The translations under genes were made by a program, and so were the position numbers. The notes beneath the pieces were generated by a model. The model was not told the origin of the DNA, did no database searches, and saw only the letters and a list, made by a program, of their open reading frames with translations. This document shows positions 11,775 to 37,837 of a stretch of DNA of 37,962 bases, one piece after another (the stretch's first letter is position 1; each line of letters starts with the position of its first letter). This stretch comes from Desulfobulbus propionicus (GTDB lineage: Bacteria; Desulfobacterota; Dissulfuribacteria; Dissulfuribacterales; DYOW01), in NCBI GenBank assembly GCA_020720325.1, contig DYOW01000014.1, positions 1-37,962 of the forward strand. The letters are read 5' to 3'.

Positions 11775-12713
11775 CTACACACTCTTTATTGAAAGATAAA
11801 AAAGCCTTTTCATCTCCTGTCTGCCCCGTGTCACGGTATTTAATACAAGGCCGCATACAAGACTTAAAAATGAAAGCACCATTAACCCTGAAACAAGTAT
11901 TGCCGTTGGAAATCTAGGCACAAGTCCGGTCTTAAAATATGTTATAAAAAGAGGGATTGAAAGCGCTATTGAAACAAAGGCAAAAAACAGACCCAGCAAG
12001 GCAAAAAACATTAATGGCCGTTCCTGCTCAAAAAATCTTATTATTGCAAGAAGAATCCTGATTCCGTCTTTGTAGGTGCTTAATTTGCTTACAGAGCCAG
12101 CGGGTCGGGATTTATAGGGGGTGGTCATCTCGCCGATTGGCATCCTTAAACTTAAGGCATGGACAGTAAGTTCTGTCTCGGTTTCAAAACCTGCTGCAAG
12201 GGACGGAAATGATTTGACAAATCTTTTGGAAAATACTCTGTAACCTGAAAGCATATCGCTTGTCGCCTTTCCAAAAAGATAAGTTGCGCAGCCAGTGAGC
12301 ATCATATTGCCAAATCTGTGGCCAGACCTGTATGCTGCCTGTTCCTCAGTGACTCTTGTTCCCACAAGCATATCAAGCTTTTCTGTTATTAGTTTTTCTA
12401 TCATTTTAGGAGCTGAAAAGGCATCATATGTGTCGTCTCCGTCAACCATTATGTATATGTCGGCGTCAACGTCCGAAAACATTCTTCTTACCACATTTCC
12501 CTTTCCCTGATGTGTCTCTGACCTTACCACTGCCCCTGCTTTTAAGGCAACTTCTTTTGTTTTGTCCTTTGAATTATTATCATAGACATAAACAGTTGCC
12601 GTTGGCAAAGCTTTTTTAAAATCCTTCACAACAGTTGCTATTGCAACTTCTTCGTTATAACATGGTATAATAACAGCTATTTCGTATTTGCTGAAATCAA
12701 TTATATTATTCAT
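11775..12713 (-). CDS. Glycosyltransferase family 2, polyprenyl-phosphate glycosyltransferase-like with C-terminal TM segments
   Basis: IAVIIPCYNEEVAIATVVKDF..VYDNNSKDKT..IMVDGDDTYDA; C-terminal hydrophobic helices. Confidence 0.88.
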   Translation of the reverse strand: MNNIIDFSKYEIAVIIPCYNEEVAIATVVKDFKKALPTATVYVYDNNSKDKTKEVALKAGAVVRSETHQGKGNVVRRMFSDVDADIYIMVDGDDTYDAFSAPKMIEKLITEKLDMLVGTRVTEEQAAYRSGHRFGNMMLTGCATYLFGKATSDMLSGYRVFSKRFVKSFPSLAAGFETETELTVHALSLRMPIGEMTTPYKSRPAGSVSKLSTYKDGIRILLAIIRFFEQERPLMFFALLGLFFAFVSIALSIPLFITYFKTGLVPRFPTAILVSGLMVLSFLSLVCGLVLNTVTRGRQEMKRLFYLSIKSV

Positions 12714-14407
12714 TTTTTATAAACCTTGCAGAAATTAAAATGTCTTTGGTTTTTATTATCTCTTTCATCAATATAGAAATCTATTTTGGGTCTGAATTTT
12801 TCACAGCTTGATTTATCAATCTTTAAGTTATAGGCATTAAGCACATCAAGAGTGAGTTCTTTTTCAAGATAGAAAAATATTACATATAAATCTCCTTTAT
12901 GCTTGTTTATTTTTGATTTCATCATCAAATCAAAACCGTTTGGATTATTTTTAGGCCCGGTAAAAAATCCCTGAAGTCTTATGAAAGGTATTTCTTTTGG
13001 GAAAAAGGGAATTATATATGAATCAGGCTCAGAGCCTGCCATTAATATCATGGTTTCTTTGGGTTTCTCTATATATGGAGTAACCACGCCGAAATATTCA
13101 TCTGTCCATTTTGTTCTGCCCCAGTTGGCTGGTTTTATTGTGATAAGAATTAATAAGATTAATATAATGCCTGCAATTCTTCCATATTTGATGTGCATGG
13201 GATTTAAACGGGATGAGAAATAGTCAAGAATAAGCCATATAGCAATGGGCGCGATCATCTCAAAAAGCACAAGATACCTGTAAATTCCAAACATTTTAAG
13301 CCAGAAAAAATAGGTTACTGCGCCAAATATAAAAAATCCAAGCCACAGCCACTGTTTCCCTGCATCAACAAGCGGGTAGGTTCTGATTTTTTTAGAAAAA
13401 AACCTGACAGGCAATAAAATAGCTGCAATGATCAGCAGTGTGTATAAAACTGCAAATCTGATGTCTCTGAAAGGTATTTCTCCCACCTCCATTGGATTAA
13501 ATGTCCAGATAAAGGGCAAAAAAAGCCATTCCCAGATGTTTTCAGGGATAAACCTTATATCCCTGTAATGGGCGATGCTTCCCATCTGAGACTTAAATAT
13601 ATGATTAAAATAAGGGAAAAACGGATTTCCAAATCGTGTCCACATCTCATAAAGCCAATATCCTCCGGAGATAATAATGCCTCCGATAACACCAATTCCA
13701 AATATAAAGGCTTTCCATGTTCCAAGCCAGAAATTCCATTTTTGATCATTTCTTTTAAGGGCATAATGTGAAAGACAAAGCCCCATGCAAAAAATCACTG
13801 ATGTCTGCTTAAAACCTGCGGAAATACCAGCAAGAATGCCGGCGCAAAATGTAAAAAAATCATAAAATTTGGGACTTTCATAGATTCTTTTGTTGATTTC
13901 AAGGGTGATAAGAAATGAAGATAATACAAAAAGGCTTAAAATATTGTCGCTAAACATTGTTCCTATCTCGCCAAAATGCCCGCCCCCCAGAATGCCTGCA
14001 ATGGAAAGCCCCGCGGCAATAAAAAATGCCTTTTTATCATCTCTTTCAAGAATAAGCCTTTTTGCAATAAAATAAGTGATAAGGATATTTACGCCCTGAA
14101 TTGTTCCAAGAATAAATGATACAAGAATTGGCTTCAGGTAGGTTGCCATGTAATAGAAAGGCACATAGAGCAAAGGATTATAAAAATTTGGGGTATGTGC
14201 AGGCACAATATCAAAACCCATTCTGTCATTTAAGAGAGAATAGGGAATATAATAGTGATAATTTCTCAGGTCCCAGTTGATGTCCTGTCCAAGAATAATT
14301 GCAACTAATCCCACAAAGAATGGAGCAAGAATAAAAAATAGCTTCTTCATCAGTTTGAACTGATGATTAGTTATATTGCCTGTTAGGTTAATGACCTTGT
14401 TTGCCAT
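12710..14407 (-). CDS. Polytopic membrane protein, probable GT-C type glycosyltransferase or mannosyltransferase-like
   Basis: Many predicted TM segments; start overlaps the adjacent GT2 gene; NWDLRNYHYYIPYSLL near the N-terminus. Confidence 0.65.
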   Translation of the reverse strand: MANKVINLTGNITNHQFKLMKKLFFILAPFFVGLVAIILGQDINWDLRNYHYYIPYSLLNDRMGFDIVPAHTPNFYNPLLYVPFYYMATYLKPILVSFILGTIQGVNILITYFIAKRLILERDDKKAFFIAAGLSIAGILGGGHFGEIGTMFSDNILSLFVLSSFLITLEINKRIYESPKFYDFFTFCAGILAGISAGFKQTSVIFCMGLCLSHYALKRNDQKWNFWLGTWKAFIFGIGVIGGIIISGGYWLYEMWTRFGNPFFPYFNHIFKSQMGSIAHYRDIRFIPENIWEWLFLPFIWTFNPMEVGEIPFRDIRFAVLYTLLIIAAILLPVRFFSKKIRTYPLVDAGKQWLWLGFFIFGAVTYFFWLKMFGIYRYLVLFEMIAPIAIWLILDYFSSRLNPMHIKYGRIAGIILILLILITIKPANWGRTKWTDEYFGVVTPYIEKPKETMILMAGSEPDSYIIPFFPKEIPFIRLQGFFTGPKNNPNGFDLMMKSKINKHKGDLYVIFFYLEKELTLDVLNAYNLKIDKSSCEKFRPKIDFYIDERDNKNQRHFNFCKVYKK

Positions 14408-18290: not shown

Positions 18291-18872
18291 TTACTCCCAT
18301 ATATTTCCAATTTCAAGCTCATCATTAAGCGCCTGGCTTTTAATTATTCCTGTTGTTATGACGCTTGAAAAAAGCTCGTATCTCATATTCTTAATTATGT
18401 AATTTTCAAGGATTTTTTCATCAGGATAGGCAACCCAGAACTCATTGATATTAAATTTTTCATAAATAGTCTTTTTAACCTGCAAATCCCTGCGGGTGGT
18501 TGACGGAGAGATTATCTCAACCACCATATCAGGAGCGCCAAAAAGCCCGCGTCTTTGAATTATTTTTCTATTATCATTAGAAATATAAATTATATCCGGC
18601 TGCAATACATTTGTTTTGGAAAGCACAACATCAAGGGGTGAAAAAAGGATTTCGCCTATACTTTTTTCATTCACATAGTTTTGCAAAATAAATCCTAATT
18701 TTGACTGAATTTTCTGATGAATATAAAGAGGCGATGGTGACATCCATAATTCTCCTTCAATAACTTCATAACGTTTATCGTCATCAAGCTTGTAATAGTC
18801 GCTGTATGTCCAGATTTGTTTTTTATGAATACTGGAATTGATTTGAGGTTGTGACAAGGTATGTGCTAACAT
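18291..18872 (-). CDS. Uma2 (DUF820) family protein, PD-(D/E)xK nuclease fold
   Basis: YEVIEGELWMSPSP..LQPDIIYI..GAPDMVVEIISPSTTRRDLQVKKTIYEKFNINEFWVAYP. Confidence 0.9.
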   Translation of the reverse strand: MLAHTLSQPQINSSIHKKQIWTYSDYYKLDDDKRYEVIEGELWMSPSPLYIHQKIQSKLGFILQNYVNEKSIGEILFSPLDVVLSKTNVLQPDIIYISNDNRKIIQRRGLFGAPDMVVEIISPSTTRRDLQVKKTIYEKFNINEFWVAYPDEKILENYIIKNMRYELFSSVITTGIIKSQALNDELEIGNIWE

Positions 18873-21259: not shown

Positions 21260-22957
21260 TCAGGCAGTAGTTAAATTTGAAAGCTCCTCATTAATCCTCT
21301 GAAAGACATCTTCCCATTCTTTAAAATTTTTTTGCCTGAATAATTTCATATCTGGATACCAAGGACTTTTTGTGCCATCAACGCCCCACCGCCAGTCATG
21401 GTGATAGGGAATAATTGTCCATGTAGGCTTTCCCATTGAAGCTGATAAGTGGCAAAGAGCAGTGTCAACAGTTATAACCAAATCAAGATGTTCAAGGATA
21501 GCGGCGGTGTTTGCAAAACTAATCAGTTCATCGGCAAGATTAATGCAATTATCATGGTCTTCCGGCAATATCTTAAATTCTCTTTGAAGGCTAAAAAATT
21601 TTTTTTCTTTATGACTAAATAAACTTGAAAAATCACCAAACTCACAGGATTTTTGTAAAGAATATTCTGACTTTGGATTGGTTTTCCATGCAAAGCCAAT
21701 CTTAAACATATCTTTATAGGGTTCAAAAAAATTATGATATTTTTTAACAAGTTCTTCATCAGGAAATAAATAAGGTATATTAACTGGTATTGAATTTTCA
21801 TTGGTTTTTAAGATTGTAGGCAGATTAAGAAGCGGCGTGTAACAATCAAATTTATCAAGATTGTTATTAACATGATCCCGCGGCATTATTTCATCAATAT
21901 CTTCAAAATTTTTGAATAAGTCAAGCAGCTCCCAATTTGCAGCCAAAATAATTTTTTTTGATAAGGGTCTGATTTTTTTTAAATATCTCACGAACATCAA
22001 ACTGTCGCCAAAACCCTGTTCAGCATGAACAAGCAGGATTTTATCTGAAATATCCTCACCGTTCCACAGTGGTTTCGCTATATGAAGAGAAAAGGTGTTG
22101 GGTCTTTTCCACCTCCAGAGATATTCCTTAAATCCTTCTTCTATATTATTATTTGCAAGATAAGCAAGGCTTAAATTCCAATGGGCTTCAACCATCTCAG
22201 GATTTATCTGAATTGCCTGATTATAATTATTAATAGCCTTTAGATTATCAAGCTTATTTCTGTGGCAATTTCCTATATTATAATATATTAAGTCTAAATT
22301 ATTTTTTGAGGCTTTGTCTATTTCAAGGGCTATTTCAAAATTTTTAAGGGCATTATCAATATCTTTATCAATATCATAAAGAATATTTCCTAAATTGATA
22401 TAGGCATGAGAAAAATTTGGCGCTAATTCAATAGCTTGCAATAAAAGTTTTTTGGCGGTGTCATGTTGTTTTTTTTCAATTAATGTTTTTGAATAATTAT
22501 ATAATGCATTTACGTTATTAGGGTTGATTGTTATTACTTTTTGGAAAGCTTGTTCTGATAAATCATATTGTTTAATCTTATAATATGCCACACCTAAATT
22601 TAATAAACAAGTCTGATTGTTAGGTTGTAACAATATTGCCCGTTCATAAAAAGGTATAGACACTGCATGTCTGTTAAGGAGTTGCCTGTTATAGCCAAGC
22701 TCATATAAAACAGATGGCTCATCAGGTTTTATTTCCAAAGCTTTTTCAAAATTCTCCCTTGCTTCGTCATAATTACCAAGAATGTTCAGGCACACTCCAA
22801 CATTAAAAAGCGCTTCAAAATAAGCGGTATTTAATAAAAGCGCCTGTTTATAAAAGTTAACAGCTTCATTAATATTTTTTTGTTGAAATAACTGATTAGC
22901 AATATTATAATATTCAATTGCTTTTTGTATTTGTAATGGCAATGCAATATTTGACAT
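21260..22957 (-). CDS. TPR-repeat protein with C-terminal glycosyltransferase domain (GT9/OGT-like)
   Basis: Multiple TPRs (EALFNVGVCLNILGNYDEARENFEKALEIKPDEP); C-terminal ILLVHAEQGFGDSLMFVRYL..DLVITVDTALCHLSASMGKPTWTIIP. Confidence 0.87.
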   Translation of the reverse strand: MSNIALPLQIQKAIEYYNIANQLFQQKNINEAVNFYKQALLLNTAYFEALFNVGVCLNILGNYDEARENFEKALEIKPDEPSVLYELGYNRQLLNRHAVSIPFYERAILLQPNNQTCLLNLGVAYYKIKQYDLSEQAFQKVITINPNNVNALYNYSKTLIEKKQHDTAKKLLLQAIELAPNFSHAYINLGNILYDIDKDIDNALKNFEIALEIDKASKNNLDLIYYNIGNCHRNKLDNLKAINNYNQAIQINPEMVEAHWNLSLAYLANNNIEEGFKEYLWRWKRPNTFSLHIAKPLWNGEDISDKILLVHAEQGFGDSLMFVRYLKKIRPLSKKIILAANWELLDLFKNFEDIDEIMPRDHVNNNLDKFDCYTPLLNLPTILKTNENSIPVNIPYLFPDEELVKKYHNFFEPYKDMFKIGFAWKTNPKSEYSLQKSCEFGDFSSLFSHKEKKFFSLQREFKILPEDHDNCINLADELISFANTAAILEHLDLVITVDTALCHLSASMGKPTWTIIPYHHDWRWGVDGTKSPWYPDMKLFRQKNFKEWEDVFQRINEELSNLTTA

Positions 22958-22981: not shown

Positions 22982-25810
22982 TTATTCCTTTAATTTATTT
23001 AATTTTTCTTTGGCAATTAAATTATTCGGTAATTTATTCAGAACTGTTTCGTAAGCATATTTTGCCGCATCAGTAAAACCTGCCATGAAATAAGCATCAC
23101 CAAGTTTTATAAATAAGTCATACTTTTGTGGCATTGCTTTCAGGCAATTTTCATAAGCAATAATAGCCTCATTAAAATTTTTCTGATATAAGAGCAAATC
23201 TCCAATTTCTTCCCATAAAATGGCAGTTTTAGGATTTAAGAGAACTGCGCTTTGTAAAAAAGCTATTCCTTCATAAAAATAACCATTTTCAAGAAAAAAT
23301 TTTGATTTTAATATTAAATAATTCTCATCAGATGGTTTTTTTTCCAATAATTTATCAAGAAACAGTAATATTTTATTATTCTGCCCGGATGCATAATAAA
23401 ATTTTAGAGCCAATTCATTATATTCAGGAAGCATTTCAGATAAAGGTTCCCATTGTGTTATCAGGTTCTCTGTTTTATGCTGATCATTATTCCCTGCTTG
23501 ATTAATAATTTCTTTATGTATTTCCCAGAGATTAAGAATTTGACTTGATATTGAGAAATCACTAAATAAATCAATTATAAAAATAAAACGTTTTGCCCAT
23601 TTATTAAATACAGTTGGAAAGCCCTCATTAAATCTGCCGAGCATCATTTTTTCTTGGTTTTCCATCTCATTTTTTGCAATGAAAACAAGTATATTATTTA
23701 AATAAGGATCATCCTGTGTTATCTGTTCCTTATATTTTTGGGCATTTTCATAGTCGTTCATCAATAAAAAATAAGCAGTTTTTAAATAATATAAAAAATT
23801 TTGAGGATAGTTGTTTTCTTCAAGAGAGATTATTATTTTATTTGCAAGATTTGCATAACCATTCATTAAGTATAATGCTGCCAATTCTTTCAGGATATCA
23901 ACATCCTTGTTTTTCCTGCTCTTTGTCAATAAATCCGTCTCTTTAATTAAAAAATCCTTTAGTTCATATAAGGTTTTTTCAAAAAGATTGATTTTTTCCT
24001 TTCTTAATAAATTAATAGATTTTTTTCTGTTAATCTCCGCGACTAACCACATTAAATAACCTTCTTTTTTTAAAATTTCTTCATTTTTAAAGCTTTCGGC
24101 TTCAAATTCAGCAAGATTTTTAAAGGTCAGTTCCATTACTGAAAAAGAAATATCAGGTATATTGTCAAGATAATTATTTAGCTTATCAAGTTCTAATAAT
24201 TTATTGAAAATAAATCTTGGCAAATGTTCATGACCGGAAATACTTAAATTTTTTTTGGCTAATTCTTTTATATCTTCGGAGATTTCATCTATTAATTTGA
24301 CAGATTTGTCAATTTTTTTATAAATTAGTTTTATTCTTGTAAGGATATCATCTGTTTTTCTAAAAATTGGATCAATTTTATAATTTTTTTTTTTAGGTAT
24401 ATTTTCAATTACATTCTTATTTATTAAATGATTTTCGTACCTCTTATTTAATTCATCTAATTTTATTCTTTCTGTTCCTTCTATATGAAGACCCTTTGAG
24501 GTGGCGTTAATGATATGTGTGTCTTGATTTTCATTTATGATTTTTTCAAAAAGTGTTTTGATAGATAAAAATTGCCTGTCAGTCCTTATAGTTGTTCCAT
24601 CAACTCCTTTAACATACAAATATTCCCTGTCATTTGTCAATTTGCTATGAAAAACAGTATGTTTGGAATGATCAATAGATTCTTCAGGAAAACCAAGGTC
24701 TTGTCCTAAAAGAATTACAGGATTAGCTCCGATATAACAGGCAAAAAGAAGGGAAAGATGCGCGGCAGACGACGCTGCCTGAATAGAATGGTAGGATTGT
24801 AGCGCATTAACAATCCACTGCTGAGGCAATTCATTTATAATTATTATTGAAAGCGCATTATAAGGCGCCCTTTTTATTATTAATGGACTTACCTTATTCA
24901 TTGCTATTAAGGTATATGGAAGTCTTTTCTCTATGGTTGGAAGAAATTTTTCAAAATTTTCATCCTGAAAATCAATGGTTGTGACAAAATCTGGTATAAT
25001 ATCATATTTTGAAAGCGCTGAGAGAGCGGAGTCAACTGATATTATGATTACCTTGTCCTGCATTTTTTTTAATATTTCCAAATCATTATCCAGTGATGGT
25101 CCTGCAGCCACACATACTGCCGGTAAATTCAAGGCAATATCTTTCAGGTTTTCAACAGGTAAAATATGATTTAAAGGTTTTAGATTTTCGTATCTGTTTT
25201 TAAAAAAATAATCACCACATTTTGAAATTGTGCCGCCGTTTGCAGATATTAAATTGGCTATTTCATAAATTTTATTGTTAACTTTTTCAAACAGTTCTTT
25301 TTTATGGATAAAACCCGGAATATACTGTAACAAATGTATGTCATAAATAGACGCAAGCCTGAAAATATCCTGTTCAAATGCAAAATAATCAGGCTTACCT
25401 ATAAATATGCTTGTTTTTATAGTATTAAAAAGATCTGTTAAATCAATATGATGCAAAGCAAAAATAAAATGGTCAATCCAAGGTTCAATAATTACAATCT
25501 TACTTAATTTTGGACGTTTTTCCAGAATATAAAGCGGACCATAACCCAGTCCGTTTCCTGTAAATATTGCGACACCCCTGGAATCTTCAGGTATAACTCC
25601 AAGATGTTTCTGTGCATCTAATAAAGGATTTTCCCAATTATATGCCAATTTTTCGTTAAATGGCGTGTCAAACAAAAGATTTGCCATATTGTTTTTGGAA
25701 AACACAAGGGTTCCGGGAGGGTTATAATTTTTATATGATTTTATAAAATTATATAACTTAGGATCTTTTTTCTCTAGGGCTTTGAGATTTTTTTCGAAAA
25801 TAGATTCCAT
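22982..25810 (-). CDS. Maf-type flagellin glycosyltransferase (DUF115/MptE-like) with C-terminal TPRs
   Basis: LPAVCVAAGPSLDNDLEILKKMQDKVIIISVDSALSALSKYDIIPDFVTTIDFQ; GANPVILLGQDLGFPEESIDHSKH; TPRs at C-terminus. Confidence 0.9.
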   Translation of the reverse strand: MESIFEKNLKALEKKDPKLYNFIKSYKNYNPPGTLVFSKNNMANLLFDTPFNEKLAYNWENPLLDAQKHLGVIPEDSRGVAIFTGNGLGYGPLYILEKRPKLSKIVIIEPWIDHFIFALHHIDLTDLFNTIKTSIFIGKPDYFAFEQDIFRLASIYDIHLLQYIPGFIHKKELFEKVNNKIYEIANLISANGGTISKCGDYFFKNRYENLKPLNHILPVENLKDIALNLPAVCVAAGPSLDNDLEILKKMQDKVIIISVDSALSALSKYDIIPDFVTTIDFQDENFEKFLPTIEKRLPYTLIAMNKVSPLIIKRAPYNALSIIIINELPQQWIVNALQSYHSIQAASSAAHLSLLFACYIGANPVILLGQDLGFPEESIDHSKHTVFHSKLTNDREYLYVKGVDGTTIRTDRQFLSIKTLFEKIINENQDTHIINATSKGLHIEGTERIKLDELNKRYENHLINKNVIENIPKKKNYKIDPIFRKTDDILTRIKLIYKKIDKSVKLIDEISEDIKELAKKNLSISGHEHLPRFIFNKLLELDKLNNYLDNIPDISFSVMELTFKNLAEFEAESFKNEEILKKEGYLMWLVAEINRKKSINLLRKEKINLFEKTLYELKDFLIKETDLLTKSRKNKDVDILKELAALYLMNGYANLANKIIISLEENNYPQNFLYYLKTAYFLLMNDYENAQKYKEQITQDDPYLNNILVFIAKNEMENQEKMMLGRFNEGFPTVFNKWAKRFIFIIDLFSDFSISSQILNLWEIHKEIINQAGNNDQHKTENLITQWEPLSEMLPEYNELALKFYYASGQNNKILLFLDKLLEKKPSDENYLILKSKFFLENGYFYEGIAFLQSAVLLNPKTAILWEEIGDLLLYQKNFNEAIIAYENCLKAMPQKYDLFIKLGDAYFMAGFTDAAKYAYETVLNKLPNNLIAKEKLNKLKE

Positions 25811-27155: not shown

Positions 27156-27262
27156 CAACAAAAAAAACAATCATTTTAACCAATTAAACATCTTGACATT
27201 AACCTGAAAAAACAAAACTATTTCCAATGAAGGAAATAAAAATAATCATGGAGGATTAAAAA

Positions 27263-29662
27263 ATGATTAATGTTACAGCGCTAAACGCCCAATTCCAATA
27301 TTCCGTAAACGTGGAATCTTTTTCTGCATCCAATGCAAGACTTTCATCACAGAGTCGTATCAACAGCTCAGCAGACGATGCGTCAGGACTTGCCATCGCA
27401 ACCAGCCTTAATGTTCAGTCCGCTGGTCTCTCACAGGCTATCAAAAATGCAACCAGCGCCGTGTCTGTTATTTCGATTGCTGATAAAGCTTTAAATGAAA
27501 CTGTTGCCAAGCTTACGACAATAAAACAAAAAGCAATCCAGGCTGCTTCTGATGAACAAACCCTTGACTCCAGGAAAAAAATTCAGGCTGATATCAACAA
27601 ACTCGTCGCACAAATTAACAATATAGCCAGAACCACAGCATATAACGGATTAAAACTTCTTTCAGGAGAGTTTACAAACAAACAGTTCCAGGTTGGCGCT
27701 TACAGCGGTGAGACAGTTGGCGTTAATATTGACTCTACGGAAGCTACAAAAGTCGGACATCTTACCACAGCAGACCTCGTTGTTGACCAGGCTGCGGTTG
27801 GCGGTGAGACAAGATTAAGCATTTACAGCGCAAACCAGAACGTATGGGTTGATATACAATCAGTCAAGCTTGCATATGATAACTCATCTAACAACAGCAT
27901 TGGCGCTCTTGCTAATGCAATCAATAAAGTTGCCGTAAGCACAGGCGTCACTGCCCAGGCTATTGTTCAATCCACAAGCAACGCCGCAGTCGCCGCAGGA
28001 TCCACAGGTTCTGATTTCGCTGTTAACGGCGTTGTTGTTGGAGCAATCACTGTTGAGGCCAATGATGCTAATGGCGCTCTTGTTAATGCGATTAACCAGA
28101 AACAAAGCCAGACAGGCGTTACCGCTTCAGTTGACCAGGCGGGATTTCTTACCCTTAAATCTGACGGAAGGGCAATAAAGGTTACTGGTGAAACCGGCAC
28201 TACTCTTATGGGAAGCGACTTTACCACCCTCGGAAAGATTAAACTTTTCCAGACAGGCGCAAATGAAATAAGAATCAATGATGACGCTGATATGGTTTCT
28301 CTCAATACCACCGCAGCCATTACAACTGGTGGCGATGTAAATACTATTATTGATTCTACTATTGCCAAAGATAGCACAATAATATCTTCATCAATCCTTC
28401 AGGCTGGCTCTACCCTTGGTTTTGTTCTTGCAGGCTCAGGTCTTCGTCAGGCTGCTATCACCACAACACAGGATAGCACAATTCTTGCTGGTTCTGTTCT
28501 TGCAAGCACATCTTTAATTGAAGCAAACACAATTCTTGGCGGAACCGCAAGAGTAGAAGGTGATACAACCGTTGACACTGAAAGTCTTTTAAAGGCTGGA
28601 AGTATCCTTGAAAGCGGAGCTATCTTTACAGCAGGCACTACTTTGACCACAGGAATTAACACAACAACAGGAAGCCTTGCTGCTGGCACAACAATAGCTG
28701 CTGATGTCACACTTTCAGGCGACGCGACATTTCTTGCTGACATGCTTATTCAGGCAAATTCAGTAATACAAAGCAATTCTTCATTGCTTGCTGGTTCAAG
28801 AATAGATAAAGACCTTAATCTTGACAATCATATGACCTTAACGCAAACCATGAAGCTTCTTGCAGGCTCAAGGATAGGTGGTGTAGCTGCAACAAATCTT
28901 TTAGATGGTTCAACAATTGGTGGGGCTTTTACACTAAGTGGCGATGCTGTTGTCACAAGGGATATGTTATTAAAAACAGGTTCTGTGATTGAAAGCACTT
29001 CTGTTCTTGGCAAAGGCTCTACTATTGGTGGTTATACAAAGATTGATTCAGGTGGCGCTGCAACACTTGGCGGCGATATGACCCTTGCAGCTGGTTCTGT
29101 AATTGGTTCTGCTTCAACGATTAAGGCAGGAACAGTTCTTACTGATGATATCTGGGGCGCTGGCTCAATACTTTATCAAGCAGGGACCGTGTTGACAGGC
29201 GATCTGACCACATCTGGAACAAACAGAATAGACAATTCCATGACACTTAAAGCTAATTCTGTCTTAATGTCAGGCTCTACGCTTGCTCCAACAGCATCCG
29301 CAAGCACCGGAGCTTCCGCAACCACATCTATTGAAAACCTTGAAAGCTACAGACTTTCTGACATTAATGTTCTTTCTCAGGAAGATGCGCAGGTTGCGAT
29401 CTCCATTGTTGACGCTACGATAAGCGCCATAACCAAGGTTAAATCCGATCTTGGTTCTTCTCAGAACCAGCTTACAAGCACTATTGCAAACCTTGGAACA
29501 ACAAACACCAATGTTCTGTCAGCTTCAGCCACAATCACACAAATTAACTGGGCTGAAGAGTCCACAACCTTCTCACAGATGCAGGTGCTCAAGCAGGTGT
29601 CACAATACGCGTTGTCACAGGCAAATGCAGACTTCCAGAGCGTAATGAGATTCTTCCAGTAA
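27263..29662 (+). CDS. fliC: Flagellin with large repetitive central insert
   Basis: N-terminal RINSSADDASGLAIATSL and C-terminal ATITQINWAEESTTFSQMQVLKQVSQYALSQANADFQSVMRFF; RBS GGAGGATT; central hexapeptide repeats such as LLKAGSILESGAIFTAGTTL. Confidence 0.93.
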   Translation: MINVTALNAQFQYSVNVESFSASNARLSSQSRINSSADDASGLAIATSLNVQSAGLSQAIKNATSAVSVISIADKALNETVAKLTTIKQKAIQAASDEQTLDSRKKIQADINKLVAQINNIARTTAYNGLKLLSGEFTNKQFQVGAYSGETVGVNIDSTEATKVGHLTTADLVVDQAAVGGETRLSIYSANQNVWVDIQSVKLAYDNSSNNSIGALANAINKVAVSTGVTAQAIVQSTSNAAVAAGSTGSDFAVNGVVVGAITVEANDANGALVNAINQKQSQTGVTASVDQAGFLTLKSDGRAIKVTGETGTTLMGSDFTTLGKIKLFQTGANEIRINDDADMVSLNTTAAITTGGDVNTIIDSTIAKDSTIISSSILQAGSTLGFVLAGSGLRQAAITTTQDSTILAGSVLASTSLIEANTILGGTARVEGDTTVDTESLLKAGSILESGAIFTAGTTLTTGINTTTGSLAAGTTIAADVTLSGDATFLADMLIQANSVIQSNSSLLAGSRIDKDLNLDNHMTLTQTMKLLAGSRIGGVAATNLLDGSTIGGAFTLSGDAVVTRDMLLKTGSVIESTSVLGKGSTIGGYTKIDSGGAATLGGDMTLAAGSVIGSASTIKAGTVLTDDIWGAGSILYQAGTVLTGDLTTSGTNRIDNSMTLKANSVLMSGSTLAPTASASTGASATTSIENLESYRLSDINVLSQEDAQVAISIVDATISAITKVKSDLGSSQNQLTSTIANLGTTNTNVLSASATITQINWAEESTTFSQMQVLKQVSQYALSQANADFQSVMRFFQ

Positions 29663-29697: not shown

Positions 29698-29727
29698 TTC
29701 CTCCCTCTGGTTAAACAGGGGGAGGAA
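29698..29727 (+). terminator. Hairpin downstream of flagellin, probable terminator
   Basis: TTCCTCCCTCTG gttaaa CAGGGGGAGGAA stem (11 of 12); weak T tract. Confidence 0.5.
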
Positions 29728-29755: not shown

Positions 29756-30334
29756 ATGGCGACAGCAACGATAATAAAACAGGATGTCAGAGATTTAATA
29801 GTTCTTCCTGACTATGATTACAGTGATTATGAAAGATGGGAAGGAAAATGGGAACTTATTGAGGGTTTGCCCTTTGCAATGAGCCCTTCGCCTTCATTAA
29901 GACATCAAAGAATGTCCTCTTTAATTGAAGCAGAACTTGAAGAACGACTTAAAGATTGTAAGGAATGCAAGGCTTTTTTGCCCATTGATTGGAAGGTGTC
30001 TGAAAAAACCATATTGCAGCCTGATAATTGTGTTATTTGTGATTTTGACTTAAACAGGCGTTTTATTACAAGTCCGCCTGTTATGATTTTTGAAATATTA
30101 TCACCAAAAACCAGAAAAAAAGACACTGAAATCAAGTTCAGGATTTATGAGGAACAAGGGGTAAAATATTTTATAATAATTAAGCCTTTAAAGTTGACTG
30201 CCTTAATTTATGAAATTAATGATGGCAAATATGTTTTACGGACAAAGGCTGAAAACGGTTTTTTTAATTTTGATATAGGATATTGCGAGTTTAGTTTTGA
30301 TTTTAACAGAATTTTTGATGAGTTTAAAAAGTAG
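29756..30334 (+). CDS. Uma2 (DUF820) family protein
   Basis: WELIEGLPFAMSPSPSLRHQ..LQPDNCVIC..SPPVMIFEILSPKTRKKDTEIKFRIYEEQGVKYFIIIKP. Confidence 0.9.
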   Translation: MATATIIKQDVRDLIVLPDYDYSDYERWEGKWELIEGLPFAMSPSPSLRHQRMSSLIEAELEERLKDCKECKAFLPIDWKVSEKTILQPDNCVICDFDLNRRFITSPPVMIFEILSPKTRKKDTEIKFRIYEEQGVKYFIIIKPLKLTALIYEINDGKYVLRTKAENGFFNFDIGYCEFSFDFNRIFDEFKK

Positions 30335-30339
30335 AAATT

Positions 30340-30915
30340 ATGGCGGCATCAACGGCAATAAAACAAGATGTCAGAGATTTAATAGTTCTTCCTGACTATG
30401 ATTACAGTGATTATGAAAGATGGGAAGGAAGATGGGAACTTATTGAGGGTTTGCCCTTTGCAATGAGCCCTTCGCCAGTGAGAAGACATCAGATAATAAG
30501 CTTGAATATTGCCATTGAACTTGCTGAAAAACTTGAAAACTGTCAAAAATGCCGGTCATATTTTAATCTTGACTGGATTATAAGTGATAAAACTGTTGTT
30601 TGTCCTGATAATATGGTTGTTTGTGATGATGATATGCAAGAGAATTTTATAAGAACAACTCCTGCAATAATATTTGAGATACTTTCACCTAAAACTATTG
30701 ATAAGGATAGGGTGAATAAGTTCAGGATTTATGAAAAACAAGGCGTTAAATATTATGTAATAATTGACCCTTCACAATTAATTGCTGATGTTTATTGTTT
30801 AAAATATAATAAATTTTTGGTTAGCGGACAGTTTGCAACAGAAATTTTTAGTTTTGACATAGATTACTGTTGTTTTGATTTTAATTTTGGCAATATGTTT
30901 AAGGAATTAAGGTAA
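30340..30915 (+). CDS. Uma2 (DUF820) family protein, tandem paralog
   Basis: WELIEGLPFAMSPSPVRRHQ..CPDNMVVCDD..TPAIIFEILSPKTIDKDRVNKFRIYEKQGVKYYVII. Confidence 0.9.
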   Translation: MAASTAIKQDVRDLIVLPDYDYSDYERWEGRWELIEGLPFAMSPSPVRRHQIISLNIAIELAEKLENCQKCRSYFNLDWIISDKTVVCPDNMVVCDDDMQENFIRTTPAIIFEILSPKTIDKDRVNKFRIYEKQGVKYYVIIDPSQLIADVYCLKYNKFLVSGQFATEIFSFDIDYCCFDFNFGNMFKELR

Positions 30916-30922
30916 TTTAAGA

Positions 30923-31324
30923 ATGGGCAGAATAGTTGCGCCGGTAAAAATTTCAAATGCAATAGACAGGGAACAGAAAATTCTGTGTGATGCCCTTGTT
31001 GACACAGGCGCTTCCTATATGGTTTTACCCATTGCATGGAGACAGAAACTCGGCGTTCTTGAAAAGATTGACACAATTGAATTGGAACTTTCAGATCAGT
31101 CAATTAAAACCGGTGATATATGCGGCCCTGTTATGATACAGCTTGAAGGTTTCCGTCCGGTTTTTTCAGAAGTTTTATTTATTGACATGAAACCTGAAAA
31201 TGGAATGTATGAACCTTTAATCGGCTATATTATTCTTGAACAATGTCAGGCAGGAGTTGATATGCTTGGACACAGATTGGTTCATGTTAAAACAATGGAC
31301 TTAAAAAAATTTAGCAGGAGATAA
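30923..31324 (+). CDS. Retroviral-like (clan AA) aspartic protease
   Basis: CDALVDTGASYMVLPIAWRQKLG (DTGAS motif) and EPLIGYIILEQCQAGVD. Confidence 0.78.
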   Translation: MGRIVAPVKISNAIDREQKILCDALVDTGASYMVLPIAWRQKLGVLEKIDTIELELSDQSIKTGDICGPVMIQLEGFRPVFSEVLFIDMKPENGMYEPLIGYIILEQCQAGVDMLGHRLVHVKTMDLKKFSRR

Positions 31325-31328
31325 ATTT

Positions 31329-32690
31329 ATGGCTACAATATCTTCTTTAGGAATTGGTTCTGGTTTAGATTTACAAGGCATGTTGGATCAATTAAGGCAA
31401 ATTGACGAAGAAGCCTACATCACACCGCTTAATGACAGCATAACAAAAATAAATAATCAGCTCGCTGGTTTTGACAGCATAAATCAGAGTGTTCTTGATA
31501 TACAAAGTGATGCGTTAAGCCTTGCTTTAAATACCACTTTTATGGGAAGAACCGTTAATGTTGGCAATTCTTCTGTTATAAGCGCAAGCGTTGTTGACGG
31601 CACAACTGCCGGAAGCCATGAGGTAAGTGTCTCAAGACTTGCCACAAAAAGCTCATGGATTTCCCAAAGCGGAGCTGCCTCCGCAGATGCGATTGCCTCT
31701 GTGGCAGGAGGGACTTTTAGTTTCACAGTTGGCTCGGGGAATCAGGTTGATGTTACTGTTTCCGCAAATGCCACATTACAGGAACTTGCTGATGCTATAA
31801 ACAATAAAGACGCTGGAGTAACCGCAAGCGTTGTTAATACAGGCACAGGCGCTAATCCATATAAACTTGCCATAAATGCCAATAATACCGGTGAGTCTTC
31901 AAGAATTACCATAACAAATCAGCTTGGGGATTTTGCCCTGGATGAAAATCAGGGATCAGGCGGCGCTTCGCTTAACACAGAACTTACAGTAAATGGAATT
32001 ACATATCAGAGAAACAGCAACAGCAATATAAAAGATATTATTTCAGGTGTTACTTTAAATATAAACAGCACAGGCAGTTCATCCCTTGAAGTAGGGGTGA
32101 ATACCGCTTCCGTTAAAGATATTATTAAGGGTTTTGTTGAGAAATTTAATACCCTTGTCTCAGATATCAAAAACAAGACAGGCTACGATGAGGAAGGTAA
32201 TCCCGGATTATTAACCGATTTAACTTCAATTAAAAATCTTAGTTCTGAAATAACTGATTTGATGTTCACCAACGTTGATGTGGGCGGTTCTATAACAAAC
32301 ATGATTGAACTTGGTGTTTCTGTTAACGAAGACGGGACAATAACTATTGATGAAACCACGCTTGACGATGCAATCGAAAATAATTTTGATGATGTGAAAA
32401 ATTTTTTCATTGGAAATGACACTGTCAAGGGTTTTGCAGATAAGGTTACGGATAAAATGAACTCCTTAACCTACTATGGAACAGGAATTCTTTCTTTAGA
32501 GCAAACAACTGCCCAGAGCAGAATTGAGGATATTGACAATGAAATAACCTCAACAACCACAAGACTTGATGAAAAATTTACACACCTTACAGAACAATTC
32601 ACACAGCTTGATGTGGTTATGGCGCAGATGCAGGCCATTCAGGATTATCTGACCAGTCAGTTTGATGCATTGGCAAATTATAATAGCTAA
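31329..32690 (+). CDS. fliD: Flagellar hook-associated protein 2 (filament cap)
   Basis: ATISSLGIGSGLDLQGMLDQLRQIDEE; C-terminal RIEDIDNEITSTTTRLDEKFTHLTEQFTQLDVVMAQMQAIQDYLTSQF. Confidence 0.95.
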   Translation: MATISSLGIGSGLDLQGMLDQLRQIDEEAYITPLNDSITKINNQLAGFDSINQSVLDIQSDALSLALNTTFMGRTVNVGNSSVISASVVDGTTAGSHEVSVSRLATKSSWISQSGAASADAIASVAGGTFSFTVGSGNQVDVTVSANATLQELADAINNKDAGVTASVVNTGTGANPYKLAINANNTGESSRITITNQLGDFALDENQGSGGASLNTELTVNGITYQRNSNSNIKDIISGVTLNINSTGSSSLEVGVNTASVKDIIKGFVEKFNTLVSDIKNKTGYDEEGNPGLLTDLTSIKNLSSEITDLMFTNVDVGGSITNMIELGVSVNEDGTITIDETTLDDAIENNFDDVKNFFIGNDTVKGFADKVTDKMNSLTYYGTGILSLEQTTAQSRIEDIDNEITSTTTRLDEKFTHLTEQFTQLDVVMAQMQAIQDYLTSQFDALANYNS

Positions 32691-32717: not shown

Positions 32718-33200
32718 ATGAATATGACACGCGGAGCAAGCGCTTACGGAACAACTGGGGTATTAACAGCAGATCCTTATAAGTTGATTTTGATGCTTTA
32801 TGATGTCTGCATTAAGAATTTACATCTTGTCAATCAGGGTATAGATGAAGACAATATTGTTAAAAGAAGCGAAGCATTATATAAAGTTATTGAAATTATA
32901 AATGAGCTTTTAATTGCTGTTCGTGGCGAGACCGAACAGGCTGCCTTTTTAAGAGGTCTTTATATAGCGATTCTTTTGGAGCTTCCAAAGGTTAATCTTA
33001 CCAATGATAAAGCAATAATTGACAGGTCAATTCGGTATATTATCGAACTTAGAAGAATGTGGCAGGAAGTTATCGCGGACGAAAATAAAAAAAATAATTG
33101 CTCCAGGGAAGAATTACATAGTAATACTGGTGGCGCGCCACCAAGGCAGATTAATTATAGCAATTCAGCCGCAACTTATCAGCGGCCACAGGCATTATAG
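32718..33200 (+). CDS. fliS: Flagellar export chaperone FliS
   Basis: GASAYGTTGVLTADPYKLILMLYDVCIKNLHLV; directly downstream of fliD. Confidence 0.92.
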   Translation: MNMTRGASAYGTTGVLTADPYKLILMLYDVCIKNLHLVNQGIDEDNIVKRSEALYKVIEIINELLIAVRGETEQAAFLRGLYIAILLELPKVNLTNDKAIIDRSIRYIIELRRMWQEVIADENKKNNCSREELHSNTGGAPPRQINYSNSAATYQRPQAL

Positions 33201-33634: not shown

Positions 33635-34051
33635 ATGGAAATAAGATCAAGCGCAGCGCAAACAAGTTTAGGAACATCATATCTTGCAGGAACAAGAAAT
33701 GTATCCCATGAAGTGGTAAATAATGCACAGCCAAAACAGGAATCCACAAATATCAGCAAACCGATTGCTGATATGGCGAAAAAGGATATCCAGAATCTTG
33801 AAAAAATGACCAGAACAGAGCTTGAGGAAGTTGTAAGTGAGATTCAATCTGATATTGAATTTTTTAGAAACAAGATTAACTTTAAGGTTGATTCCAACTT
33901 TGATAATGCCTGGATCACACAGCTACTAAATAAAAGCACAGATGAAGTGATAAGTCAATTTCCGCCTGAATATCTTTTAAAGATTAGTAAATCACTTAAA
34001 GATATGTTTAAAGATATGTTAAAAGGCATTCTGGTTAATGAAAGGACATAG
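33635..34051 (+). CDS. FlaG-like protein
   Basis: INFKVDSNFDNAWITQLLNKSTDEVISQFPPEYLLKISKSLKDM resembles the FlaG core; RBS AAGGAGG. Confidence 0.72.
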   Translation: MEIRSSAAQTSLGTSYLAGTRNVSHEVVNNAQPKQESTNISKPIADMAKKDIQNLEKMTRTELEEVVSEIQSDIEFFRNKINFKVDSNFDNAWITQLLNKSTDEVISQFPPEYLLKISKSLKDMFKDMLKGILVNERT

Positions 34052-34737: not shown

Positions 34738-35757
34738 TCACACCATCTCCCAAAAAATATAACTTCCTCTCTTGATATCACCTTGCGCTTTTTTACCCTT
34801 TATTAAATCCAGCATATCAGGCATAAGCCCTCCACCTGGTCTGAAACTTCCTATATTATCATCTGAAAAAATCTCCCCTGCCTTAATATCCATGATTGCA
34901 TAGACAGACCTTCTGCTTTTGTTGATTTCTGTAGGAAAATATACTGTTCCCATTGCCTTTTCAATATTTCTAATCTCTTTTGTCATCTGGGAGAATTCAT
35001 CTTTATCCATTGAGAAAAAACTGTCGGCTGTCTTCATAGATTTATCTATAATAAAATGTTTTTCAATTATTGTTGCGCCTATTGCCACAGAAGCAATAGC
35101 AACTCCAATTCCGTGACTATGGTCTGAAAGCCCAACCGGTATATTAAAAATTTTTTCCAATGCCTCAATTGTCCTTAGATTCATCTGCTCAAAAGGCGCA
35201 GGATATTCGCTGACACAGTGAAGCAAGGCAATTTGTGAACAGCCGTTTGTTTTGGCAATCCTCACTGCATTATCAATCTCTGAAAGCGTAGCCTTTCCTG
35301 TTGACATGATTATTGGTTTTCCTGTTCTTGCTATGTGTGCGATTAATTGATATTCTATTATTTCAGGGGATGCGATTTTATATGCAGGAATATCCATTTT
35401 TTCAAGAAAATCCACAGACGATATGTCAAAAGGTGAAGAAAATAATGTTATGCCAATTTTATCAGCAATTTCCTTAAGTTTTGGCTGCCATTCCCAGGGT
35501 GTATAAGCCTTTTTATAAAGTTCATGCATTGTTTGACCTGCCCAGGGACCTTTTTCAAGAAAAAAAGGCGCTACATTGCAGTCAAGGGTTAATGTGTCTG
35601 CAGTGTATGTCTGAAGCTTGATTGCATCTGCCCCACATTCCTTTGCAGCATGGATAATATCCACTGCCCTTTCATAATCGCCGCCATGATTTGCGGACAT
35701 TTCTGCTATAATATAGACAGGATTTCCATTGCCAATTTTATTTTTGTTTATTTGCAT
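34738..35757 (-). CDS. pseI: Pseudaminic acid synthase (NeuB family)
   Basis: YIIAEMSANHGGDYERAVDIIHAAKECGADAIKLQTYTADTLTLD; C-terminal SAF-like domain FRPGGGLMPDMLDLIKGKKA. Confidence 0.92.
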   Translation of the reverse strand: MQINKNKIGNGNPVYIIAEMSANHGGDYERAVDIIHAAKECGADAIKLQTYTADTLTLDCNVAPFFLEKGPWAGQTMHELYKKAYTPWEWQPKLKEIADKIGITLFSSPFDISSVDFLEKMDIPAYKIASPEIIEYQLIAHIARTGKPIIMSTGKATLSEIDNAVRIAKTNGCSQIALLHCVSEYPAPFEQMNLRTIEALEKIFNIPVGLSDHSHGIGVAIASVAIGATIIEKHFIIDKSMKTADSFFSMDKDEFSQMTKEIRNIEKAMGTVYFPTEINKSRRSVYAIMDIKAGEIFSDDNIGSFRPGGGLMPDMLDLIKGKKAQGDIKRGSYIFWEMV

Positions 35758-35760
35758 AGG

Positions 35761-36168
35761 TTAACCAAGCGCCTCTTTTACAATATTAAAAACAAATTCT
35801 GCCTTTTTAATGGCATCTTCCGCATCATTAATGGTATATTCTTCAAGCGGGATAAAATCCTCAGCCCCATAAAAACATAGCTCCCTTTCTTTGCGTAATT
35901 CTTTGGAGATTTTTTTTATGTTTTCCATATCATTTTTTATAATATCTGGGAAAAAATCAGAGTATTGTTCCAATATCCTTCCAACATCATGTATCCTTGG
36001 GATTTCTGCTCCCACGCTCCTTAAAAGGGCTTTTAACAAAAGTTCAACCACTTCCTGAGCCTCTCTCACCACATCAGGATAATCTTTATGTTCAAGATAG
36101 AAATATAATGCCTTTATCCGAATATGGGATTTTATAAGATAATCGTTTATAAGCCTGTCATTTCCCAA
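35761..36168 (-). CDS. HEPN domain protein
   Basis: REAQEVVELLLKALLRSVGAEIPRIHDVGRIL; adjacent to MNT. Confidence 0.8.
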   Translation of the reverse strand: MGNDRLINDYLIKSHIRIKALYFYLEHKDYPDVVREAQEVVELLLKALLRSVGAEIPRIHDVGRILEQYSDFFPDIIKNDMENIKKISKELRKERELCFYGAEDFIPLEEYTINDAEDAIKKAEFVFNIVKEALG

Positions 36169-36169
36169 G

Positions 36170-36664
36170 TTAGAGCCTTTTTTGTATTAATGGTCTGGAA
36201 GACATATCCCAGATAAATTTATTTGCATAAGGTATTTTTTTATAATGAAACTCTTTTTTTATTTTATTTAATTTATTTAAAATATTCTGCAAAAACTCAT
36301 CTTTATCAAATAAAATACTGATATTTTCTGTCATATCAAGATAAATTGGCTGAAAAAAACCTGCCTGTTCTTTTGATATTATATATGGGGAAATATCCAT
36401 GCTTATCTTATAGTTATTGAATAAATTCTGGGAAAAAGGATTTATTTTTAACTCTATATTATCATAAAAAAAATCCCATTCATATTTTTTTTCCTTTTTT
36501 TTATCCAAAATTATCAGTAAATCAATATCAGAATTTATTTTTTGTGTGGAAGAGGCATATGAACCATAGACAGCGAGGCTTATGAGATTTTGATTATAGG
36601 CATTAATAATAAAATTAATAATCATCTCAAAGCATTCCTGATGTATTTTATTAAAAAAAATCAT
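36170..36664 (-). CDS. Nucleotidyltransferase (MNT-like)
   Basis: LISLAVYGSYASSTQKINSDIDLLIILDKK. Confidence 0.85.
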   Translation of the reverse strand: MIFFNKIHQECFEMIINFIINAYNQNLISLAVYGSYASSTQKINSDIDLLIILDKKKEKKYEWDFFYDNIELKINPFSQNLFNNYKISMDISPYIISKEQAGFFQPIYLDMTENISILFDKDEFLQNILNKLNKIKKEFHYKKIPYANKFIWDMSSRPLIQKRL

Positions 36665-36688: not shown

Positions 36689-37231
36689 TTAAATGTTTTT
36701 CCATATTTTTGCAAAATCAAAGGATAGTTCACAATCTTTTATATTAAAAACAAATGTTTCGTCTGTTATGTCAGCCTCTTTGGCATATCTGCCCTGATAA
36801 TTTTGGTAGATTTTCACAAGCTTTTCATCAGGATCAACTATGCAGTAATACTTTACGCCCTCCTGTTCATATAGCTTGAATTTAACACGAATATCCTTGT
36901 TTTCTGTTTTAGGTGAGAGGATTTCAAAGATTATGACAGGTGGTGTAGTTATGTAATTTCCCTTTGGTTTATAACAGACCACTGAATTGTCAGGCTGCAC
37001 AATGGTGTCTTTTGATATTCTCCAGTCAACAGGCAAAAGCGCATAACAATCAGTGCGATTATCCAATGCTTCATTAAGAATAATGCTGATATTGCCATTT
37101 ATAAGCTGGTGATTAATAGAAGGAGCTGGCGACATTGCATAAGCAATCCCACTTATTATCTCCCAGTTTCCCTCCCAGTTTTTGTAGTCTTTGTATGTGT
37201 AATGCGGCAGATATTTTCTTGCAAGGTTCAT
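36689..37231 (-). CDS. Uma2 (DUF820) family protein
   Basis: WEIISGIAYAMSPAPSINHQ..VQPDNSVVC..TPPVIIFEILSPKTENKDIRVKFKLYEQEGVKYYCIVDP. Confidence 0.9.
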   Translation of the reverse strand: MNLARKYLPHYTYKDYKNWEGNWEIISGIAYAMSPAPSINHQLINGNISIILNEALDNRTDCYALLPVDWRISKDTIVQPDNSVVCYKPKGNYITTPPVIIFEILSPKTENKDIRVKFKLYEQEGVKYYCIVDPDEKLVKIYQNYQGRYAKEADITDETFVFNIKDCELSFDFAKIWKNI

Positions 37232-37252: not shown

Positions 37253-37837
37253 TTATATTTTTATGAATATTTTCTCAAGTTTAACTGTTAATCCCTCAAG
37301 AACCTTTGATTTTGCCGAGTTTGGAAGTATTTTATTGTCATAGGACTCCACGGCGCCTTCAGAAAAAATATGATATTTGTTATTTTCAATAGCAAAAACC
37401 TGAACACATTCCATTTCAGGATATACAAGCCAGAACTCTGTTATGCCAAATTTTTCGTAAATATCCCTTTTTTCAAATGTATCCCTTGTCAAAGTTGACT
37501 GGGATACAATCTCAATTACAATGTCAGGATTTCCAAAAATCCCCCTTTTTTGAATTTTATCCCTGTTTTCCTGTTTTATAAATATTAAATCTGGCTGCAC
37601 AACATTTTCCTCGTCAAGGATTACATCTGTAGGGGCGGAAAATATATAGCCAATTTGATTATTTCTAACAAAACCATTTAAAATCATAGAGATATTCTTG
37701 CGATACCATTGATGATAGGAGGTAGGTGTGGGGTAACTTATAAGATTTCCCCTTAATATCTCATATTGTTTTGTATCCTCAATTAAGAGATATTCTTTAT
37801 ATGTGAATTTTTTGTTTTTAAGTGATAAGGTATTCAT
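37253..37837 (-). CDS. Uma2 (DUF820) family protein
   Basis: VVQPDLIFIKQENRDKIQKRGIFGNPDIVIEIVSQSTLTRDTFEKRDIYEKFGITEFWLVYP. Confidence 0.9.
   Translation of the reverse strand: MNTLSLKNKKFTYKEYLLIEDTKQYEILRGNLISYPTPTSYHQWYRKNISMILNGFVRNNQIGYIFSAPTDVILDEENVVQPDLIFIKQENRDKIQKRGIFGNPDIVIEIVSQSTLTRDTFEKRDIYEKFGITEFWLVYPEMECVQVFAIENNKYHIFSEGAVESYDNKILPNSAKSKVLEGLTVKLEKIFIKI

Follow-up and report, generated by a model that had tools for sequence, protein, structure and literature searches.

The outer domains of flagellins are known to vary, and the flagellin gene in the stretch of DNA analysed here (37,962 nucleotides, hereafter the window) raises the question of what a long run of hexapeptide repeats, inserted between recognisable flagellin ends, would build on the surface of a filament. 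The original prediction had placed such an insert at positions 28328-29310, that is, residues 356-683. The insert is real: the gene is an intact reading frame (Table 1) with repeats detectable from about residue 363 to 676, and matches to Flagellin_N (113.2 bits), Flagellin_C (64 bits), Flagellin_IN and, in the middle of the protein, Hexapep (34 bits, cut-off 27) all exceed the Pfam cut-offs. A frameshifted N-terminus concealing a canonical MALRINTN start was considered and found no support; since the GGAGGA ribosome-binding site directly precedes the short start, the short N-terminus is taken as genuine. The sigma-54 promoter pattern TGGCAC-N-TTGC had no match in the window.

Table 1. Positions in the window of the flagellin gene, its parts and neighbouring genes.
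Feature	Position	Strand	Remarks
TPR protein with glycosyltransferase-family-9 domain	21260..22957	-	
MptE/Maf-N glycosyltransferase-like protein	22982..25810	-	C-terminal TPRs; divergent from flagellin gene; best NCBIfam match PseD, below cut-off
Ribosome-binding site GGAGGA	27250..27255	+	ATG 7 nt downstream
Flagellin CDS, 799 aa	27263..29662	+	Intact ORF
D0/D1 N-terminal region	27269..27676	+	Flagellin_N (Pfam), residues 3-138; D0 portion atypically divergent
Flagellin_IN motif	28019..28165	+	Residues 253-301 (best stretch), inside Campylobacter-like D2/D3 region ~161-350
Solenoid block A	28349..28645	+	Three S-type 37-aa units, residues 363-461
Inter-block junction	28646..28735	+	Residues 462-491; hexads persist
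Solenoid block B	28736..29290	+	M-type units, four full and others partial, residues 492-676
Return linker to D1	29291..29362	+	Residues 677-700, Ser/Ala/Thr/Gly-rich; low pLDDT at 678-693
D1/D0 C-terminal region	29399..29656	+	Flagellin_C, residues 713-798; D0 portion 751-799 strongly divergent
Intrinsic-terminator-like hairpin 3' of flagellin gene	29698..29727	+	Consensus match only
FliD filament cap	31329..32690	+	
FliS flagellin chaperone	32718..33200	+	
FlaG	33635..34051	+	
Pseudaminic acid synthase PseI	34738..35757	-	444.7 bits, cut-off 340

The 6-residue periodicity that had been read from the sequence by eye stands well above shuffled controls. In a phase-tolerant local test, the period-6 power of aliphatic residues in the insert reached z = 15.8 against composition-preserving shuffles; the same test gave no rise at periods 3, 3.6, 4, 5, 7 and 8 (|z| < 2), and z for period 6 was -0.7 in a control stretch of the same flagellin (residues 140-355). 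The motif [ILVMF]x3[STAGV]x[ILVMF] occurs 38 times in the insert, compared with 14.5 +/- 3.2 times in shuffled sequences and a maximum of 26 over 5000 shuffles. Since a few linkers shift the register, the insert yields no significant signal when one Fourier term at exactly 6.0 is taken globally. Register assignment by dynamic programming yielded 51 hexads, and across the relatives hexad position 1 is aliphatic in 92% of cells and position 5 is S/T in 62%, these two positions having the lowest entropy. In a left-handed beta-helix (LbH) it is positions 1 and 5 that point inwards, and the hexad composition agrees with the LbH rule [LIV]-[GAED]-x2-[STAV]-x. A disordered or low-complexity insert was rejected, since relatives at 39-53% identity preserve the register of the hydrophobic hexads.

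The hexads are themselves organised into a higher-order repeat unit of 37 aa (consensus ADMTLKAGSVLASGSTLAAGSTLGGDLTLSGDTTTTT), whose six hexads equal two LbH turns. The unit is present in the window flagellin and in its insert-bearing relatives, and was absent from the four ordinary flagellins examined (L062, L063, L070 and L089). Unit position 3 distinguishes two types, S and M, by its residue; along the chain they keep a fixed order, with three S-type units before a junction and five M-type units after it. This order (with four M-type units where the last is undetected) recurs in nearly all members of about 800 aa, across orders, while the flagellin of Desulfobacter latus carries about 9 S-type units and about 10 in the M block, so that growth has affected both blocks. 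The window's own units share on average just 30% identity with one another, and most of its full units resemble their positional counterpart in one of two relatives (L003 or L004) more closely than they resemble any sister unit; the array is therefore old. Recent slippage is rejected on the same low identity, and the degenerate repeats do represent an old expansion, as had been proposed. The 37-aa two-coil unit, the S/M two-block architecture and the length variation among relatives had all been overlooked.

What fold do these units adopt? A search of PDB sequences with the insert profile returned 20 matches, with E-values from 3e-6, all of them to hexapeptide proteins (WxcM, LpxD, GlmU, DapD-type and gamma-carbonic anhydrase). 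AlphaFold models of the whole subunit and of the insert alone reach medium quality (mean pLDDT 66.7 and 61.5, pTM 0.34 and 0.47, respectively) and show the strand pattern of a solenoid, with short strands every 6 residues. Confidence is fair (pLDDT ~80-89) at residues 430-510 and 590-670, with a weak segment at 521-567 between them; the insert-only model is confident only near its C-terminal end (pLDDT ~90). The strand spacing in these medium-confidence models fits an 18-residue LbH coil. With Foldseek, the sole significant match of the insert model was an LpxD-type viral protein (E 9.8e-4), and none was significant against the PDB, where the top insignificant ones were other beta-helices (antigen 43, tailspikes and pertactin).

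Profile, hexad pattern and strand pattern together make a beta-solenoid well supported, and the hexapeptide type foreseen in the original prediction holds to that extent; its left-handedness is likely. Handedness is not settled by structure, since the PDB matches are insignificant and the top ones are other beta-helices, nor is it, or the spatial arrangement, proven by models of medium confidence. An irregular or right-handed solenoid, of the kind found in bactofilins, antigen 43 or tailspikes, would accord with those nearest PDB folds and with the medium AlphaFold confidence, which is low at 521-567. It is nonetheless unlikely, because the sequence profile matches are LbH proteins, hexads with one aliphatic and one small residue each follow the LbH pattern, and the best fold match, the viral one, is LpxD-like.

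The topology of the insert poses a problem to which the original prediction, with its single solenoid spike on each subunit, had given no thought. At 4.8 A per turn, simple arithmetic puts the insert ends ~8 nm apart if the ~17 turns form one rod; in Desulfobacter latus the separation would be far larger, with a linker that is no longer. As both insert ends must get back to D1/D2, a simple single spike is disfavoured. We infer instead an out-and-back arrangement, in which block A would run outwards and block B back as a folded pair of rods; this would solve the problem of the returning ends and accord with both blocks having grown in Desulfobacter latus. The hairpin is no more than suggestive because the two blocks of the window flagellin are unequal (three versus five units).

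An enzyme-like function had also been envisaged, the repeat class being that of the hexapeptide transferases, so that an acyltransferase or carbonic anhydrase might be displayed along the filament. The insert contains one His, which is not conserved, and no Cys, and the inserts of the relatives have no invariant His, Cys or Glu; the residues usual for hexapeptide acyltransferases or carbonic anhydrases are thus absent. Lacking conserved catalytic residues and any conserved metal-binding His, the insert is exceedingly improbable as an enzyme, and we reject that function.

Other flagellins with the same insert, which it had been proposed to look for, do exist. Of 46 same-order genomes, 8 gave strong matches to the insert profile, in flagellins of ~800 aa; weak matches in that order are ORFs of 231-444 aa that appear to be hexapeptide transferases and not flagellins. 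Most flagellate genomes of the order have ordinary flagellins of ~490-560 aa without the repeat. Across the wider phylum Desulfobacterota, 13 of 395 sampled genomes had insert matches at E <= 1e-8, in further families, one of the 13 being an LpxD-like ORF. A scan of 84,980 species genomes recovered at least 13 loci, labelled Deltaproteobacteria, Desulfobulbales, Desulfobacterales, Desulfobacter latus or Anaeroferrophillacea; as it relied on two peptide patterns, this count is a lower bound. One same-order contig (L014) was deposited as Desulfobulbus propionicus. A plasmid origin was not indicated, the insert being unmatched in 72,556 plasmids. Two genomes carry the gene twice, as a tandem pair in L016 (G019:C168) and as copies on separate contigs in G010. 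More distant flagellins of 840-1200 aa (L050, L052, L053, L054 and L058) have less regular hexad arrays, with long non-repeat stretches between units.

The ends of the window flagellin are a separate peculiarity. Among the relatives no part is better conserved than the D0 C-terminal region (80-96% identity), yet that of the window copy is just 38-49% identical to theirs. Its D0 ends (27263-27390 and 29513-29659) are without the MALRINTN, NTN, GL of GLRIN, NDG and IRDVDF (RDVDF) signatures, for which the relatives are canonical, although AlphaFold still predicts the D0 helices. Two readings present themselves: adaptation of the core, or a copy that is minor or relaxed, its main counterpart being missing from the assembly. 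That the gene is a decaying or minor flagellin, with selection on its core relaxed and another, canonical flagellin lost in assembly, strikes us as doubtful. The core branch of the window copy (0.58 substitutions per site, compared with 0.06-0.07 in its nearest relatives) would be expected of such a gene, as would the change of 14 of the 29 otherwise-invariant D0 C-terminal residues; moreover, two relatives have two solenoid copies, and the assembly consists of 204 contigs and is 97.55% complete. The solenoid, in contrast, has evolved at an ordinary rate (9 of 72 such residues changed), the reading frame is intact behind a good ribosome-binding site, and the locus is shared with fliD and fliS. 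FliD, too, is mildly divergent, as co-evolution would predict, while FliS is not, and a search of the source assembly found neither a second flagellin nor any other long one. A second case of core divergence is seen in the related MAGs L019 and L024 (Dive96), whose solenoid flagellin has a very divergent core (MTINVNIDAYS...).

The insert had been expected to lie in the exposed outer part of the subunit, and alignment bears this out. Residues 3-353 of the window flagellin align with residues 8-358 of Campylobacter jejuni FlaA and its C-terminus with FlaA 436-576, so that the solenoid occupies the place of FlaA D4, the outermost domain, which carries most of the glycans (PMC8306008). The neighbouring genes direct attention to the same modification, a link absent from the original prediction. 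PseI is encoded in the window, and the protein divergent to the flagellin gene matches Maf-N above the cut-off and PseD at 109 bits, below the cut-off of 670. A Maf-N/MptE ORF is likewise adjacent and divergent to solenoid flagellins in L016, L017, L021, L022 and L023. Maf-N matches were found in 10 of 12 solenoid genomes and in 4 of 21 same-order genomes without the solenoid (Fisher ~5e-4, calculated by hand and ignoring phylogeny); two insert-bearing genomes had none, and in the long Maf-like ORFs the Maf matches are short and partial. On its own, glycosylation is somewhat more likely than not as the role of the solenoid, and it is the one we favour.

The window holds further genes of note. 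Five encode Uma2 putative endonuclease-like proteins, at 18291-18872(-), 29756-30334, 30340-30915, 36689-37231(-) and 37253-37837(-); the second and third sit between the flagellin gene and fliD, followed by a 133-aa ORF with a weak aspartyl-protease match (30923-31324). A 565-aa ORF that matches nothing in Pfam or NCBIfam (12710-14407, minus strand) adjoins radical-SAM and FkbM methyltransferase genes, and a HEPN and nucleotidyltransferase (MNT) pair at 35761-36664(-) has a toxin-antitoxin-like arrangement. FlhA is encoded elsewhere in the source genome, outside the window; a second FHIPEP-family protein (L097, G000:C168:1-9000) lies outside the flagellar fliL-flhA operon (L096) and could be part of a type III secretion system other than the flagellar one.

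Taken together, we think it likely that the gene encodes a filament flagellin with a hexapeptide-repeat beta-solenoid as outer domain, most likely left-handed, which would act as a scaffold or shield for pseudaminic acid. Subunits would be exported and polymerised in the ordinary manner through the D0/D1 core, FliS and FliD, an assumption in the case of the window copy because its D0 is so divergent. In the D4 position, eight two-turn units, three S-type and then five M-type, would form stiff rods at the filament surface, probably doubled back against one another to let the chain return to D1, and the Maf/PseD-like transferase would add pseudaminic acid to exposed Ser/Thr of the solenoid. A glycosylated LbH outer domain serving as shield or spacer is the most likely role, rather than an enzyme. 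Attachment could instead be the chief role, the insert forming an adhesin or a mineral- or surface-binding sheath; it is acidic, rich in Ser/Thr and exposed by position, the Desulfobacter latus version is much longer, and glycosylated autotransporter adhesins exist (PMC4358343). We hold this to be rather unlikely as the principal role, as known adhesion domains were not detected in the flagellin and a ligand is not known, and adhesion would itself be compatible with glycosylation.

If the glycan-bearing solenoid is correct, similar two-turn units in a rod would let evolution tune filament thickness and stiffness by unit addition, as appears to have happened in both blocks in Desulfobacter latus, and glycans would find exposed Ser/Thr arranged on the rod in a regular lattice. 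More tentatively, these proteins might represent a lineage-wide class of filament, its surface made of paired, unit-extendable LbH rods (from 3+5 to about 9+10 units) that form a length-adjustable lattice for glycan display, with the D0 core rebuilt alongside in this genome. Such filaments would provide a testable system for the roles of outer domains and flagellin sugars in free-living sulfate reducers, as well as a natural fusion scaffold.

No flagellin with a hexapeptide repeat, solenoid or beta-helix is described in the literature searched. Fields et al. (2024) reportedly define structural clusters of flagellar outer domains and may already hold predicted models of this kind. Solved flagellin outer domains have other folds, and we found none to be a hexapeptide solenoid. 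The closest solved flagellins are Campylobacter jejuni FlaA (PDB 6x80) and Helicobacter pylori FlaA/FlaB (9ygu, 9yh1), with which D0-D1-D2/D3 aligns over residues 3-353. Neither has been described with hexapeptide repeats: in the position of the insert, Campylobacter carries a short D4 whose sequence is unrelated, and Helicobacter pylori has Ig-like D2/D3. The outer domains bear glycans in both Campylobacter (PMC8306008) and Helicobacter pylori, in the latter pseudaminic acid (PMC12880188).

Flagellin outer domains that are large, variable or even enzymatic are already known (PMC6248924, PMC5595980), and the hexapeptide-solenoid version is apparently new, none having been found in the literature searched. 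Giant flagellins with tandem DE regions occur in Bermanella and Oleibacter (PMC6248924). Like the window copy they have a large central insertion with internal repeats, but the repeat is a large DE region and the hosts are gamma-proteobacteria; the terms hexapep, beta-helix and solenoid are absent from that paper, in which a giant flagellin of Desulfotalea psychrophila is listed as well. Flagellinolysins likewise carry a whole foreign-type domain in the hypervariable region, for which 61 domain families have been reported (PMC5595980), yet theirs is a metallopeptidase and not a repeat solenoid. With the LbH proteins LpxD, GlmU, WxcM and gamma-carbonic anhydrase, the insert shares the hexad rule, local profile similarity and, as predicted, the 18-residue turn; it differs from them in its missing active-site residues, in its 37-aa higher-order unit arrayed in two blocks, and in its host, a secreted filament protein.
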